Source of the DNA: Candidatus Eremiobacterota bacterium
GTDB lineage: Bacteria > Vulcanimicrobiota > Vulcanimicrobiia > Vulcanimicrobiales > Vulcanimicrobiaceae
Reading direction: 5' to 3'
Assembly (NCBI GenBank): GCA_019235885.1
Contig: JAFAKB010000049.1
Location: 62,001 to 126,000, forward strand
Length of the DNA: 64,000 bases
The position numbers were made by a program, and so were the translations under genes. This document shows positions 39,274 through 45,509 of this stretch, piece by piece. The notes beneath the pieces are model-generated. The model was given only the letters and a program-made list of their open reading frames with translations, was not told where the DNA came from and searched no databases. Position 1 is the stretch's first letter; each line of letters opens with the position of its first letter.

Positions 39274-40892
39274 TTCACGCGCTTTTCGTGGCTTTTCCAT
39301 TCGCGTTCGCGCAGGACGTATTTTTGGATCTTGCCGGTTGAGGTTTTCGGCAGCTCGCAGAACTCGAAGGTCTTCGGGACTTTGAAGGCGGCGATGCGGG
39401 CGCGCATGAAGTCGCGCAGCTCCTCGGCTTCCGCACTGCGGCCGGGCTTCAGCGTGACGAACGCTTTCGGGACCTCGCCCCACTTCTCGTCCGGCACGGC
39501 GACGACGGCGCACTCGAGGATGGCGTCGTGCTCGAGGAGCAGCTTCTCCACCTGCTGCGTCGAGATGTTCTCGCCGCCGCTGATGATCACGTCCTTCGCG
39601 CGGTCGACGATCTCGACGTAGCCGTCGGGGTGGCGCACCGCAACGTCGCCCGAGTGGAACCAGCCGCCGGCGAACGCGCGCGCGGTCGCGTCGGCATCGG
39701 CGTAGTAGCCCTTCATCACGTTGTTGCCGCGCATGACGATCTCGCCTTGCGTCTTCCCGTCGGCCGGAACGTCGTTCGATTCCGCATCGACGACGCGCAC
39801 GTCGCCGGCGCCGAGCGTCACCATCGGGACGCCCTGCCGGCTGCGCAGCCGCGCTCGCTCGGCGGCGGGGAGCGCGTCCCACTGCGGGCTGTGCCAGGCG
39901 CACTCCGTGATCGGGCCGTATGTCTCGGTCAAGCCGTAGACGTGGTGCAGCTCGGCGCCGAGCGCCTCGATCTGCGCGATCGTCGCCGGCGCGGGCGGCG
40001 CGCCGGCCGTCGTGACGACGACGCGGTGGGGGAACGGCACGGTGTCCGGATGGTTCACCAAACCGATCAGCACGGTGGGCGCGGCGCAGAAGTGCGTCAC
40101 GCCTTCGGCGTGCACGGCGTGGTTTATCCCCGCCGCGTCGACCTTGCGCAGGCAGACGTGTGTCGCGCCGGCCGCGGTAACGGCCCACGGAAAGCACCAG
40201 CCGTTGCAGTGGAACATCGGGAGCGTCCAGAGATAGACGCTCTCCGGCCGCAGGTTCGCGTGAAAGATCTCCGCGAGCGCGTTCAGGTACGCGCCGCGGA
40301 ACGTGTACATCACGCCTTTCGGCTTGCCGGTCGTCCCGCTGGTGTAGTTGATCGAGATCGTCTCGTCGCCCGCGCCGGCCTGCGCAGCGCCGGCGCGCGC
40401 GGCCAGGGCGGACGGGTCGGCTTCGGCGAGAAAGCGCTCGTACTCGAACGCTCCGTCCGGATTGGATTCGCCCGGCGCAGCGACGCGGACGCGCGGAATC
40501 TCGCTCTCCAGCTTGCCGACGAGCCCGTCGAGCTCGTGGTCGTGCAGCAGCAGCGCGGCGCCGCAGTGGCCGAGGATGTAGTCGATCTCGCCGGGTGCGA
40601 GGCGCGTGTTCAGCGCGCACAGCACGCCGCCGGCAAGCGGCACGGCAAACGTGGCCTCGAGCACCATCGAAGTGTTCGGAGCCAGCACGGCGACGCGCTC
40701 GCCGGCCTGGATCCCCGTCGCCTGCAGCGCCGCGGCGAGCCGCCGCACGCGGTCGAGAAACTCCGGATAGGTCCGCCGCGCCGGACCGTCGACGACGGCG
40801 AGCTTGTCGGGATAGACGAACGCCGCGCGCTCCAAGAAGTCGAACGGGTCGAGCACGCGCTGGTGGACGACGGCGGATGCAAGCGTGTCCAT
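39270..40892 (-). CDS. AMP-dependent acyl-CoA synthetase (medium/long-chain fatty-acid CoA ligase-like)
   Basis: 540 residues from ATG 40892. ANL-superfamily motifs: NYTSGTTGKPKGVMYT (P-loop), YGLTETYGPI, GWFHSGDVAV, and the C-terminal catalytic lysine in KTSTGKIQKY. ELPKTSTGK and overall layout match the DmdB/AlkK-like group that activates short to medium chain or methylmercapto-acids. The longer upstream frame (to 41000) lacks family similarity. It is cytoplasmic and faces away from the AT-rich island. Confidence 0.92.
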   Translation of the reverse strand: MDTLASAVVHQRVLDPFDFLERAAFVYPDKLAVVDGPARRTYPEFLDRVRRLAAALQATGIQAGERVAVLAPNTSMVLEATFAVPLAGGVLCALNTRLAPGEIDYILGHCGAALLLHDHELDGLVGKLESEIPRVRVAAPGESNPDGAFEYERFLAEADPSALAARAGAAQAGAGDETISINYTSGTTGKPKGVMYTFRGAYLNALAEIFHANLRPESVYLWTLPMFHCNGWCFPWAVTAAGATHVCLRKVDAAGINHAVHAEGVTHFCAAPTVLIGLVNHPDTVPFPHRVVVTTAGAPPAPATIAQIEALGAELHHVYGLTETYGPITECAWHSPQWDALPAAERARLRSRQGVPMVTLGAGDVRVVDAESNDVPADGKTQGEIVMRGNNVMKGYYADADATARAFAGGWFHSGDVAVRHPDGYVEIVDRAKDVIISGGENISTQQVEKLLLEHDAILECAVVAVPDEKWGEVPKAFVTLKPGRSAEAEELRDFMRARIAAFKVPKTFEFCELPKTSTGKIQKYVLREREWKSHEKRVN

Positions 40893-41102
40893 GGGAACAT
40901 GTTCGCAGTCTCGCTCTATGACCCTCGCGAGGCAAGATCCACTCTCCCGAATTACGAGACGCCTACCTTTCGCCGCCAATGAGGAGGGCGGCGCCGACAC
41001 CCGGCCAAAGGACCTTAGCTAGCCGACCAACTCTACCGCATCCCAGCACGTCGCTATCTCCTAGTCCGCGGACTCATACTGAAGAAATAGGAGAAACTCG
41101 GG

Positions 41103-42347
41103 GTGATGCATCCTCTTTCCGTCTTCGTCGCATATCAATTTGAGAGTCCTCACATTAAGAAAGACGACCGGGACAAAGCGATAGCCTCCGCCATTCGAAA
41201 GACTAACGAAAACCTCCGGCGGCGCCATCCGCACCACGAAATCACGTGGGCCGGATTCGGGCTTCGATCGGGCGAGCATATAGGCACGCAGTTGGTCGAA
41301 ACAATCGCGGATTGCGACATCTTCGTCGCGGATCTTTCTGAGTTCAACCTGAACGTCGTGTTTGAGCTCGGCGTCGCCTATGGACTACAACGGTCGACCG
41401 CTAAGAAATTCAGCATCACATATGGGCTCAAACAGCAGACCTTAAAAAAGCTTCTATGGCTCGCACACGAGTCCGTTGATTGGCGAACTTTCCCGGCCGA
41501 TCTAAGTGGTCTCTATTTTGTACCATATGGGAAGGAACCATTTGCAGACGTTCTTGCTACCAGAATCCCCGAACTCTGTTTAGCGTTGATTGAGGAACGC
41601 CAAGAGGCCGATGCCCTACGCACGCTGCGAAAGTTCTGGAACCTTTCCGCCGTCTCTTCGACCGACATTGTATGCTCGGAGATACCCGACGACGTGCGCT
41701 CTCCATTTGCCAGCGCGGATAACGCAAACTATATCCGTTACGCGGCGTTTGCCGACCTCGACAGCTTCATCAACCTCAAAACTCGGATCGCCGAAATTTC
41801 TCCTGGCGAAATCATACGAGAGTACCTGCCGCGAGAGTACCGCGTATCAAATCACGACAAGTTGATCGTGATCGGTGGACCAGTGTGGAATCCCGTTGCA
41901 AAGAATATGCAACGGAGGCTTCCCTTCTATTTCGAAAGCGCGCCAAATGATCAAGACTCTCCCCTGATCGTCGAAAACGCGAAGCGACGCCGTTTGCCAC
42001 CGGTCCGAAAGAACGACCGAAAGAGAACACTTCTTCGCGATATATCGGTCTTCGCACGTCTCGGAAGCACAAAGATGGTCAGTGGATGCCTAACTTTCGG
42101 CGGTTTAAGCGCATCGAAATGTTTCATCGATCGCGAAATTGGCGCAAGCAATGTCTCATATATCGAAGAACGAGTTGATGGTGCTGATTTTGTCGTAGTT
42201 TACGAGGCTCATTTGACGGGACTTACAGGTGACGTCTCTACGCCAAACTTTTCCGACCATGAGCCGCTCATACTCATGAAGCGCGATAAACGCAGCGACA
42301 ACTTTTCGATGGTACTTGACAATTCCGAAACGGCGGAATCTCGGTGA
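41103..42347 (+). CDS. TIR-like/nucleoside deoxyribosyltransferase-fold protein with unidentified C-terminal domain (candidate defence gene)
   Basis: 414 residues in markedly AT-richer DNA than its surroundings. Residues 1-135 have the pattern of TIR-like or nucleoside-2-deoxyribosyltransferase-fold domains: SVFVAYQF strand, then HIGTQLVETIADCDIFVADLSEFNLNVVFELGVAYGL, where the Glu of ELG would be catalytic. Residues 200-400 form a second domain with LIVIGGPVWNPVAKNM and SGCLTFGGLSASKC, resembling ligand-binding modules I have seen attached to conflict-system proteins. It has no close partner gene. A role in NAD or nucleotide depletion during phage attack is plausible but inferred. Confidence 0.62.
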   Translation: MMHPLSVFVAYQFESPHIKKDDRDKAIASAIRKTNENLRRRHPHHEITWAGFGLRSGEHIGTQLVETIADCDIFVADLSEFNLNVVFELGVAYGLQRSTAKKFSITYGLKQQTLKKLLWLAHESVDWRTFPADLSGLYFVPYGKEPFADVLATRIPELCLALIEERQEADALRTLRKFWNLSAVSSTDIVCSEIPDDVRSPFASADNANYIRYAAFADLDSFINLKTRIAEISPGEIIREYLPREYRVSNHDKLIVIGGPVWNPVAKNMQRRLPFYFESAPNDQDSPLIVENAKRRRLPPVRKNDRKRTLLRDISVFARLGSTKMVSGCLTFGGLSASKCFIDREIGASNVSYIEERVDGADFVVVYEAHLTGLTGDVSTPNFSDHEPLILMKRDKRSDNFSMVLDNSETAESR

Positions 42348-42361
42348 CCCTCAACGCACCG

Positions 42362-43594
42362 TCACGCGAAACGATCTGATTTCTCAAGCCACGATTCTAG
42401 CGCGGCATCCAAATGCTGACCGAGGATCTGCCAGTCACTTGGGTCGTGGCGGTCGCTTCCGTGAAACCAGCCGCGCGTGAAGATCTGCTGATCCGTGAGA
42501 TGCCCTACAATATGCATACGAACCGCGTCTGCCTTAAACGGCATGCCGATGCTCTGCACTGAAAAGAACCCATAGCGGTCAATGACCTCAATTGTCTGTG
42601 CGAGCCCTAGCCGCTCCAAAGTTGCCTGGACGCGTTGAATGACGTCTTGTACCTCGCGGCGCCAGGAAGGCCATTCTATCGCTTGGCAAAGCAAGTTCTC
42701 TCCAGTTATCAAAGCCGCCAGTGCCGTGGACTCGCTAGCGTAAGTCGCGCTGATATGTGCCAATGATGCGTACTGCATTAGGCGTTTGGGACCGACTAAA
42801 GCCGCCAACGGTAGGCCGTTCGCTAATCCCTTCGATATGCACAACAGATCGGGCCAAATATTCAGTGCTCCGGCCACGCCCGTGCGGCCATATTTATAAT
42901 GCGATGTAATCTCGTCGAAAATTAGCACCATGCCGCTTAAGTCACAATGAGCACGGAGCGCAGCAATGGCGTCGCCGGTCCAAACTTCGGGTCGTACAAT
43001 CACGGCCGCTACTCTGTCCGCGAAAGGTAGGAGCGCATCTCGGGCAGCGCCTATACCGGCATTGGGGTCTAGAAATCGAACCGCCTCCTTGACTTCGGGG
43101 AGGATGCCGAGCGTAAGTGGGGTTTCCGAGTACGCGCAAGCGGCACTCCAGTCGTGCCAACCGTGGTAGCCATCGACAGCAATGAGCTGTCTCCCGGTGG
43201 CGGCACGGCCGATGCGCACCGCAGCGCTGCATGCGTCCGCGCCGCCTTTGAAAAACCGAGCCTGCTCATAGCGTTCGAGCCGGTGCAAAAGACGCTGCGC
43301 CGCTTCGTGTTCCAGTACCGTGGGAACTGACGCCGCACCGCATTCGATCAGTGCCCGGCGAACAGAATCCGCAAATTCTTCTCGCCCGTGGCCCCAGATC
43401 ACACTGCCGAGCGCCATGTCGAAATCGAGCCAAGTGACATTGTGTTCATCTGTAAATCGGGCTCCCTGCGCAGAGACCGCCCGTCCAGGGGAGGTATGAC
43501 CTGTGACAATCAATGGGAGCTTACTGATTGTGCTACAGCCGCCCGCTATGGGCTCACGCTTCACCGTGTCTATCTGATCTTTTCGCCTGGCCAT
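42362..43594 (-). CDS. class III aminotransferase (glutamate-1-semialdehyde aminomutase-like)
   Basis: 410 residues. PLP-fold type I: DFDMALGSVIWGHG, RFFKGGADACSAAVRIGRA, GYHGWHDW, LIFDEITSHYKYG, and the PLP lysine in ISKGLANGLPLAALVG. The family amines sugar or keto substrates; lack of hem neighbours argues against HemL itself. It overlaps the upstream glycosyltransferase by 25 bases, so the two act together, perhaps in making an amino-modified surface sugar. AT-richer than the chromosome around it. Confidence 0.87.
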   Translation of the reverse strand: MARRKDQIDTVKREPIAGGCSTISKLPLIVTGHTSPGRAVSAQGARFTDEHNVTWLDFDMALGSVIWGHGREEFADSVRRALIECGAASVPTVLEHEAAQRLLHRLERYEQARFFKGGADACSAAVRIGRAATGRQLIAVDGYHGWHDWSAACAYSETPLTLGILPEVKEAVRFLDPNAGIGAARDALLPFADRVAAVIVRPEVWTGDAIAALRAHCDLSGMVLIFDEITSHYKYGRTGVAGALNIWPDLLCISKGLANGLPLAALVGPKRLMQYASLAHISATYASESTALAALITGENLLCQAIEWPSWRREVQDVIQRVQATLERLGLAQTIEVIDRYGFFSVQSIGMPFKADAVRMHIVGHLTDQQIFTRGWFHGSDRHDPSDWQILGQHLDAALESWLEKSDRFA

Positions 43595-44778
43595 ACTAGA
43601 TCCGCGAGATCCCGAAGCAAGAGGGCGTTTCCGTAGAGGTCGACTACGATATCGTCGTCTCGTACGCGCCTGCGATGTTCGAAGAAATAGGCGTTTCCGC
43701 GCAGGCGTATGAAGCTATCGCAGAGGAAGAGCATTCGACGTGGCTCTCGATGGCAATTTGGTCCCAGTACGAGCGGGAGTGGGATCGCCCCATCGCTGGC
43801 GCACCGATGCGAGACGAGGCGAACGTCCTCTGCGCGTTCGGCGGTGCGTTCAGGCAATTCGGTCCAAAACCGCTTCGCAGCGACGCGGTCGCCGCAAAGG
43901 TCGATTCCGACGCACGAGACATCGCGTCCGGCCGCAATCGCTTTTGAGCATCGCTCGATACCGGCCGCCAAGAATATCCAAAGGTCATCGACGATCTTCG
44001 CACCCCAACGATGCCAGAACAGGGCAATGTTTCGCTTACGGCTAGCGTCGCGATGTGGACCGGCGCTTCGTTCCCAATGAAATGCCCTTGCATTTGGCGC
44101 GACGAGTAAACGGCCGCCGGATTCTGCGATACGTAGCGCAAGATCGAGGTCGTCGTATCCACTATGATACGAAGGGTCGAATCCTCCGGCAGCTTCGATT
44201 AGATGACGGCGCGCTGCACTGAATCCTAACGGCATTGCTTGTACCGGATAAGGGTGGCTCGGCAAAGTGTCCCGCCGTGCATTCAAGTATGCGTGACGGC
44301 CAACGAACTGATAGAATGTCAGGCCCGCATGATTAATGCCCCCCGATTCAGGATAGAACAAGACGCCGCTCACGACGCCCAAATCTTCGCTGCCATCAAA
44401 TGGTGTGACGAGATCGCTCAGCCATGGCTTTCCAAGGACGAGGTCGCTATCGAGACGTACTACAATGTCTCCCTTGCAGTGTTCTAAACCGGTATTGAAT
44501 GCAAAACCGTCGCCGAAAGGAAGCGTGTGAGAAATCAGCATGACTTCCACTTTCGTACTCAATGCACGTCGCCATTGATTGAGCACCGCCTTGCTGTCAC
44601 CGCTGCAGCCATCGTCGACGAGAATCAGTTGTATACCCTCAGGAAGTGTCTCATTCAGGCCGCATAGGAAAAGCTCAAGAACATTCGGCTCCTCAAATAT
44701 GGGGACTACGACCGAAACGGAAAGCGTCCCGTCGGTCGGCCGCTTCGAATTTTTCGAATGCGCCGGCAGGTTCGACAC
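43570..44778 (-). CDS. family 2 glycosyltransferase with C-terminal extension
   Basis: 402 residues. GT-A domain at about 18-250: VSVVVPIFEEPNVLELFL, LILVDDGCSGDS, the DxD metal site in RLDSDLV, and FDPSYHSGYDDLDLALRI. The last 130 residues (from about 270) are an unassigned domain with FLCDSFIRLRGNAYFFEHR and DDDIVVDLYGNALLLRDLADL. First gene of a two-gene unit with the aminotransferase. Likely acts on a cell-surface or secreted glycan; acquired region by base composition. Confidence 0.88.
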   Translation of the reverse strand: MSNLPAHSKNSKRPTDGTLSVSVVVPIFEEPNVLELFLCGLNETLPEGIQLILVDDGCSGDSKAVLNQWRRALSTKVEVMLISHTLPFGDGFAFNTGLEHCKGDIVVRLDSDLVLGKPWLSDLVTPFDGSEDLGVVSGVLFYPESGGINHAGLTFYQFVGRHAYLNARRDTLPSHPYPVQAMPLGFSAARRHLIEAAGGFDPSYHSGYDDLDLALRIAESGGRLLVAPNARAFHWERSAGPHRDASRKRNIALFWHRWGAKIVDDLWIFLAAGIERCSKAIAAGRDVSCVGIDLCGDRVAAKRFWTELPERTAERAEDVRLVSHRCASDGAIPLPLVLGPNCHREPRRMLFLCDSFIRLRGNAYFFEHRRRVRDDDIVVDLYGNALLLRDLADLVWPGEKIR

Positions 44779-44916
44779 GTTTTAGGCCGCGTCGGCGCTT
44801 GCCGACGTGCAGCGTGTTCGGATGATGCTAAGGCCAAGCACGGCCAGTCGGGACGCGGTCATCATAGTACGGCGTGACACCTCCCAGGGACGGGGGTTCG
44901 GCAGTACGGCGTTCGG

Positions 44917-44940
44917 CGGCGGAACCCGCCGTGCATTTTT
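44917..44940 (+). terminator. terminator- or attenuator-like hairpin upstream of the peroxiredoxin gene
   Basis: CGGCGG-AAC-CCGCCG followed by TGCATTTTT on the plus strand. No plus-strand gene ends nearby, so it may attenuate transcription into the peroxiredoxin gene at 45009. The remainder of the 230-base gap (44779-45008) shows nothing else I can name. Confidence 0.45.
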
Positions 44941-45008
44941 CGCCTCCGCGGACCCGTCCGATATAGACTCTCGAAGTATCGTTGAAGGCTGCGTAGAAGA
45001 GCGGCCCC

Positions 45009-45509
45009 ATGGCAGTCGCAAAAGGGACCACCTCACGCGCCTCGGAGACGCCGACGCTGAAGGTCGGTGACCCCGCACCGGACTTCACCTTGAGCTCGCA
45101 CACCGGCGAGCAGTTCCATCTGGCGGACCAGCGCGGAAAGAACGTCGTCATCGCGTTCTATCCGTTCGCGTTCTCCGGCACTTGAAGCAGCCAGATGCCG
45201 TCGTACGAGCGCGAGCAAGAACGCCTTCGTACGTACGACGCCCAGGTCGTGGGCGTCTCGACCGACTCCCGGTTCGCCAACGCCGCCTGGGCGCAGCAGC
45301 TCGGCGGAATCTCCTATCCGCTGCTGAGCGACTTCCATCCGCACGGTGCCGTCGCCCAGCTCTACGGCGTGCTGCGTCCCGAGGGCATGGCCGAGCGCGC
45401 GATCTTCGTGATCGACAAGGCTGGGATCGTGCGCTACATCGACGTGCACGAACTGCGCGAGCACCCCGACGAGGCGGTCCTGTTCGAAGAGCTCGCCAAG
45501 CTAAACTAG
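45009..45509 (+). CDS. peroxiredoxin (AhpC/TSA, AhpE-like) with in-frame TGA at the peroxidatic position: probable selenoprotein
   Basis: Reading TGA 45183-45185 as selenocysteine gives a continuous 166-residue peroxiredoxin. Residues 1-58 hold [16 protein letters not shown] and [13 protein letters not shown]; Sec59 follows, and then [43 protein letters not shown] and the C-terminal [16 protein letters not shown]. The catalytic motif P-x3-[ST]-x2-C aligns as P52-x3-S56-x2-U59, so TGA replaces exactly the peroxidatic cysteine. No other cysteine is present, suggesting a 1-Sec enzyme needing an external thiol. An in-frame TAG at 44994 fixes the start at ATG 45009. Alternatives: a TGC/TGT-to-TGA mutation or sequencing error. 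Confidence 0.85.
45203..45232 (+). promoter_or_regulatory. candidate bacterial SECIS hairpin
   Basis: Starting 17 bases after the TGA, GTACGA pairs with TCGTAC and, inside it, GCG pairs with CGC across a two-base bulge, leaving a ten-base apical loop (45212-45221) whose second base is G. Loop size, UGA-to-loop spacing (about 26) and the early G all fit the published bacterial SECIS consensus as I recall it. An alternative register (CGTCGTACG with CGTACGACG, nine perfect pairs) also exists. Confidence 0.6.

Follow-up and report, generated by a model that had tools for sequence, protein, structure and literature searches.

A horizontally acquired gene from a Candidatus Eremiobacterota bacterium pairs a predicted TIR-like domain with a C-terminal domain of an undescribed family

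The question raised by this locus is what a single two-domain orphan protein, encoded by a low-GC gene within a 64,000-nucleotide stretch of Candidatus Eremiobacterota DNA (the window), might do. The initial annotation had likened the N-terminal region to NAD- or nucleotide-cleaving TIR-like effectors and the second half to a sensor domain, proposing that the gene could act as a one-gene abortive infection system. The motifs that it named are all present: DCDIFVADLSEFNLNVVFELGVAYGL is found at residues ~71-96, and both IGGP..N and SGCLTFGG are found in the second half of the protein. The gene is real and its TIR-like signal lies above chance: a leave-one-out profile, built from 35 other TIR-like/deoxyribosyltransferase-like domains with this protein excluded, picked out the gene alone (E 2.9e-13) when run against all 552 open frames in the window, whilst scores of 47.8 bits for the N-terminus and 104 bits for the C-terminus compare to best values of 5.6 and 6.2 bits, respectively, from 2000 shuffles each. 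The compositionally foreign character ascribed to the gene is borne out by a GC content of 51.4% versus 67% for the window, and by a GC3 of 56% versus ~91% in neighbouring native genes. The features of the locus, together with one group of related fusion proteins from elsewhere, are collected in Table 1.

Table 1. Positions of the features discussed; coordinates refer to the window unless a contig is named.
Feature	Position	Strand	Basis or remark
Low-GC insertion, ~4.13 kb	40875..45007	.	Empty-site comparison with sister genomes
Probable ribosome-binding site AGGAG	41089..41093	+	Sequence; 9 nt before GTG, 12 nt before ATG
Two-domain TIR-like orphan gene	41103..42347	+	414 aa; start GTG 41103 or ATG 41106
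N-terminal TIR-like/NDT-like flavodoxin-fold domain, residues 1-172	41103..41618	+	AlphaFold2, Foldseek, profile
Codon of Glu88 (VFELG), putative catalytic glutamate	41364..41366	+	A2/A3 alignments, model secondary structure
C-terminal domain of undescribed family, residues 174-414, putative sensor	41622..42344	+	Homology to WP_329020962.1
Class-III aminotransferase, passenger	42362..43594	-	Pfam Aminotran_3 8e-26
Family-2 glycosyltransferase (GT2), passenger	43570..44778	-	Pfam Glycos_transf_2 1e-17
TIR-like/NTPase-like fusions	L044 1202-3559; L047 4383-6749; L048 4679-7054; L035 2429-4675		

Comparison with sister genomes reveals that the gene was acquired horizontally, as part of a low-GC insertion: in four of these genomes (G001, G004, G007 and G008) the genes for an acyl-CoA ligase and a peroxiredoxin lie back to back in a space of a few hundred bases, with the empty site intact, and G008 has ~90 bp in the place of the insertion. 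The gene is not fixed in a housekeeping operon, and its distribution is sporadic: searches with the protein and with a profile of its C-terminal domain did not find it in 148 other genomes of the phylum, ten of the same genus included, so that one in 149 carries it. It had also been described as single, which holds in that it is the only TIR-like gene copy in the genome, although two further genes are carried by the same insertion. These encode an aminotransferase, which is convergent with the TIR-like gene across a gap of 14 bp, and a GT2 glycosyltransferase, whose gene overlaps that of the aminotransferase by 25 bp. The same pair, in unchanged order, is found in Embleya sp. NBC_00888 (40% and 36% identity) without a TIR-like gene. 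The two genes thus probably form a passenger operon in its own right, which might encode a small pathway for a sugar or another small molecule; the Embleya pair adjoins an MDR dehydrogenase-like gene, an MFS transporter and a HAD phosphatase. The ends of the insertion show no convincing terminal repeats and no integrase was seen there, nor was a defence gene recognised upon scanning of the nearest native neighbours; PADLOC matches of the neighbouring amine oxidase and BlaI genes were judged to be spurious.

In order to characterise the N-terminal domain, relatives were gathered from plasmids and, using a degenerate motif, from viral contigs, and AlphaFold2 was run on residues 1-180 with an alignment of 35 of these. 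The resulting model (pLDDT 82.3, pTM 0.80) exhibits five strands alternating with helices, in other words a flavodoxin-like fold; a single-sequence model of the full-length protein reached a pLDDT of only 35 and was discarded. In a Foldseek search of the PDB, SPARTA TIR-APAZ chains rank first (E 1.4e-6), followed by RPPT-TIR, NDT, plant TIRs, BcmB, MyD88, DNPH1 and AbTir, with SARM1 just behind; the E values for the SPARTA, RPPT, RRS1, AbTir, SARM1 and MyD88 TIRs span 1e-6 to 1e-3. The confident model and these matches uphold the initial assignment to a TIR/deoxyribosyltransferase fold; with a flavodoxin-like fold present and no fixation in a housekeeping operon, neither of the two findings that the initial annotation named as refuting it has come about. 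Established family profiles respond less clearly: Pfam TIR, TIR_2 (PF01582 and PF13676) and DUF4062, to which the initial annotation had pointed, all gave no match at E <= 1, a separate domain scan likewise returned neither TIR nor TIR_2, and of the deoxyribosyltransferase assignment there remains a match to Nuc_deoxyrib_tr (PF05014; E 0.0015), the sole Pfam match of the domain, which at 19.1 bits falls below the cut-off of 28.8. In case of the family as a whole, the A3 profile finds DNPH1/Rcl (leading), the CBASS effector Cap12 and NDT amongst PDB sequences, and the PADLOC TIR "Effector" model matches 33 of the 36 rows of the N-domain alignment, although not the orphan protein itself. Since the fold also suits nucleotide N-glycosidases and deoxyribosyltransferases, NAD need not be the substrate.

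The candidate for a catalytic residue is Glu88, which in the model sits near the start of helix C, after strand 3, and is preceded by Asp77 and Asn84. This is the position that the catalytic glutamate occupies both in NADases of the TIR family and in NDT/DNPH1 enzymes, and the alignments together with the predicted secondary structure suggest that Glu88 may serve the same role here. Asp77, Asn84, Glu88 and Gly90 are all kept in the aligned relatives of A3, an invariance that is in part circular, most rows having been picked with a pattern demanding these residues; the rows of A2, which were found by tblastn and are less biased, also keep Asp77, Asn84 and Glu88.

Relatives of the N-terminal domain occur in several different settings. 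Several are found in prophages beside a repressor and an integrase, for example in Pantoea; the gene concerned in a Pantoea phage-plasmid (L037 2315-3190) is flanked by a CI repressor and an integrase, an arrangement typical of prophage-borne defence cargo. A recurrent family of ~750-790 aa proteins, present on proviral contigs and an Ensifer plasmid, joins the same TIR-like N-terminal domain to a P-loop (GRKGSGKTA) NTPase-like region, which looks like an undescribed defence-type architecture. A search of genome contigs identified one distant TIR-like relative, in a Clostridiales MAG. This protein (L002 6819-8276) is a fusion in which a large, unrelated N-terminal region that appears DndB/DGQHR-like by eye precedes the C-terminal TIR-like domain; its gene comes immediately downstream of genes for type I restriction-modification.

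It is the C-terminal domain and its pairing with a TIR-like domain, rather than the TIR-like domain itself, that are new. Searches of Pfam, NCBIfam, PHROGs, PADLOC and PDB sequences returned no family describing this domain: a weak match to Pfam S_layer_C (E 0.087) was not reproduced by the homologue described below and was rejected. The C-terminal domain of that homologue, too, has no match in PDB sequences, PHROGs or PADLOC. Four viral scans with the domain or the full protein also yielded no relative; a marine phage protein from a fifth viral scan, having only one short motif in common, was dismissed as pattern-selected. The sole homologue detected is WP_329020962.1, encoded on the conjugative plasmid NZ_CP109316.1 of Streptomyces sp. 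NBC_01601, which is 31% identical over 249 columns (E about 1e-22; tblastn E 3e-22) and has in common with the orphan the motifs RYA.FADLD, G.P..N, GCLT.G.L.A.KC, N and TP. Where the orphan exhibits a TIR-like domain, the N-terminus of the Streptomyces protein is HTH-like and not TIR (Sigma70_r4_2 E 0.051, subthreshold). The second domain postulated at the outset is thus a genuine separate module, present in two phyla that are far apart and with a different output domain in each, and comparison of the two proteins indicates that it has been shuffled, its partner being TIR-like in one and HTH-like in the other. Swapping between output partners is common for domains that sense ligands, CARF being one example, and a sensor or regulatory domain would be expected to turn up, as this one does, on different output modules: we infer such a role for the C-terminal domain. 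TIR-like enzymes with attached sensors recur in bacterial and eukaryotic immunity, where the input of the sensor is usually the question, and this well-bounded, small (240 aa) sensor candidate could offer a defined starting point for the discovery of a new trigger or messenger.

Comparison with known systems places the protein outside of each of those considered. Swarozyc is a single-protein system combining a TIR-like and an auxiliary domain, in which binding of the phage portal leads to NAD depletion and aborted infection (PMC13174449). The orphan resembles it in being one gene with an N-terminal NDT-related TIR-like domain and a C-terminal auxiliary domain, in its horizontal spread and in the conserved glutamate, but has no DUF4062 match (E <= 1), and while the auxiliary domain of Swarozyc is HTH/winged and portal-binding (PMC13174449), that of the orphan has no sequence relation to a known domain. 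In SPARTA, it is an Argonaute that drives assembly of the TIR domains, and the subunits are encoded next to it (PMC10474274). The orphan protein lacks a DUF4062 match and the genome an Argonaute, and by these two tests the protein is neither Swarozyc nor SPARTA. With regard to the TIR effectors of CBASS and Pycsar (Cap12-type, PF10137), the N-domain family profile finds Cap12 and the relatives match the PADLOC effector model, but the orphan itself matches neither Pfam CAP12 nor PADLOC models, its C-terminal domain is not recognised as STING or another known sensor, and no cyclase (CD-NTase) lies beside the gene, the insertion adding only the aminotransferase and the glycosyltransferase. By the tests run, the protein is therefore not a member of SPARTA, Swarozyc/DUF4062 or CBASS. 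With the NDT/DNPH1 superfamily it has in common the fold and the Asp...Asn...Glu arrangement, but it stays below the curated threshold, carries an extra C-terminal domain and has no salvage genes nearby.

Our preferred reading, to which we assign about an even chance, is that of a horizontally acquired modular effector that cleaves NAD(P) or a related nucleotide, is gated by its C-terminal domain and probably serves in abortive-infection defence. According to this model, the N-terminal domain would use Glu88 to hydrolyse NAD(P)+, or a nucleotide related to it, at the N-glycosidic bond, with the C-terminal domain holding it off until a trigger binds; entry of a phage or mobile element would cause a conformational change or oligomerisation of the C-terminal domain, upon which the TIR-like domains would come together, NAD levels would drop and cell growth would stop before the invader replicates. 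The TIR/N-glycosidase fold, the swapped C-terminal domain, the sporadic distribution, the low-GC insertion facing empty sites in sister genomes, the effector-model matches of most relatives, the occurrence of relatives in prophages or as NTPase-like fusions and the precedent of Swarozyc (PMC13174449) favour such an effector and make an abortive-infection role plausible, whilst the case is weakened by the lack of a PADLOC match, the subthreshold NDT match, the metabolic appearance of the co-inserted genes, the lack of a recognised defence gene among the nearest neighbours scanned and there being only one known relative of the C-terminal domain. A stronger version of this reading, in which an undescribed ligand- or phage-sensing module can be plugged onto either an HTH-like region or a TIR-like N-glycosidase and here forms a one-gene system of abortive infection that is new and answers to a trigger of its own, is tentative and somewhat doubtful.

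Because the two enzyme classes have both fold and glutamate in common, sequence and fold are also compatible with a nucleotide N-glycosidase, and the main rival, unlikely but to be taken seriously, is a nucleoside/nucleotide N-glycosidase or deoxyribosyltransferase (similar to NDT, DNPH1 or BcmB) with a substrate-recognition or regulatory C-terminus, acting in nucleotide salvage, sanitation or, with the aminotransferase and glycosyltransferase, small-molecule biosynthesis. Nuc_deoxyrib_tr being the only Pfam match, the leading position of DNPH1/Rcl amongst the PDB profile matches, the presence of NDT, DNPH1 and the CMP N-glycosidase BcmB in the Foldseek results and neighbours that look like glycan or small-molecule metabolism all speak for this, but TIR NADases head the fold matches, the sole relative of the C-terminal domain carries an HTH-like region in front of it, and co-function with the neighbours is not indicated given that they lie on the opposite strand and that their counterparts in Embleya lack the TIR-like gene. 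That same HTH-like partner in Streptomyces could instead point to a regulatory or signalling protein outside of defence, in which catalysis has been lost, the TIR-like domain is an oligomerisation or ligand-binding module and the C-terminal domain is the functional part. Many TIR domains are scaffolds, which also counts towards this reading, but we consider it improbable, as Asp77, Asn84 and Glu88 are all retained, consistent with retained catalysis, even if this conservation was partly forced by the manner of collection. By far the least probable is a SPARTA TIR-APAZ relative whose C-terminal half is the APAZ region for a short Argonaute encoded elsewhere: TIR-APAZ chains are the closest solved fold for the N-terminal domain and the length is similar (414 versus about 420-450 aa), but there is no Piwi-domain gene in the whole genome assembly (95% complete), no SPARTA PDB chain was found by sequence with either the C-domain profile or the full protein, PADLOC finds nothing and known SPARTA subunits sit beside their Argonaute (PMC10474274). 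We therefore rejected SPARTA membership, there being neither an Argonaute nor APAZ similarity by sequence.

A separate observation concerns the AhpC/TSA peroxiredoxin gene that adjoins the insertion (window 45009-45509, + strand), which contains an in-frame TGA (45183-45185) at the position of the peroxidatic cysteine. The same TGA is kept in G001, G004, G007 and G008, and the genome possesses a tRNA-Sec (75 bits): the product is thus very probably a selenocysteine peroxiredoxin, the gene for which a standard gene caller would truncate at the TGA. In the sister genome G008, three consecutive large genes with, by eye, dynamin-like P-loop starts (L029 5204-10139) adjoin this same peroxiredoxin.
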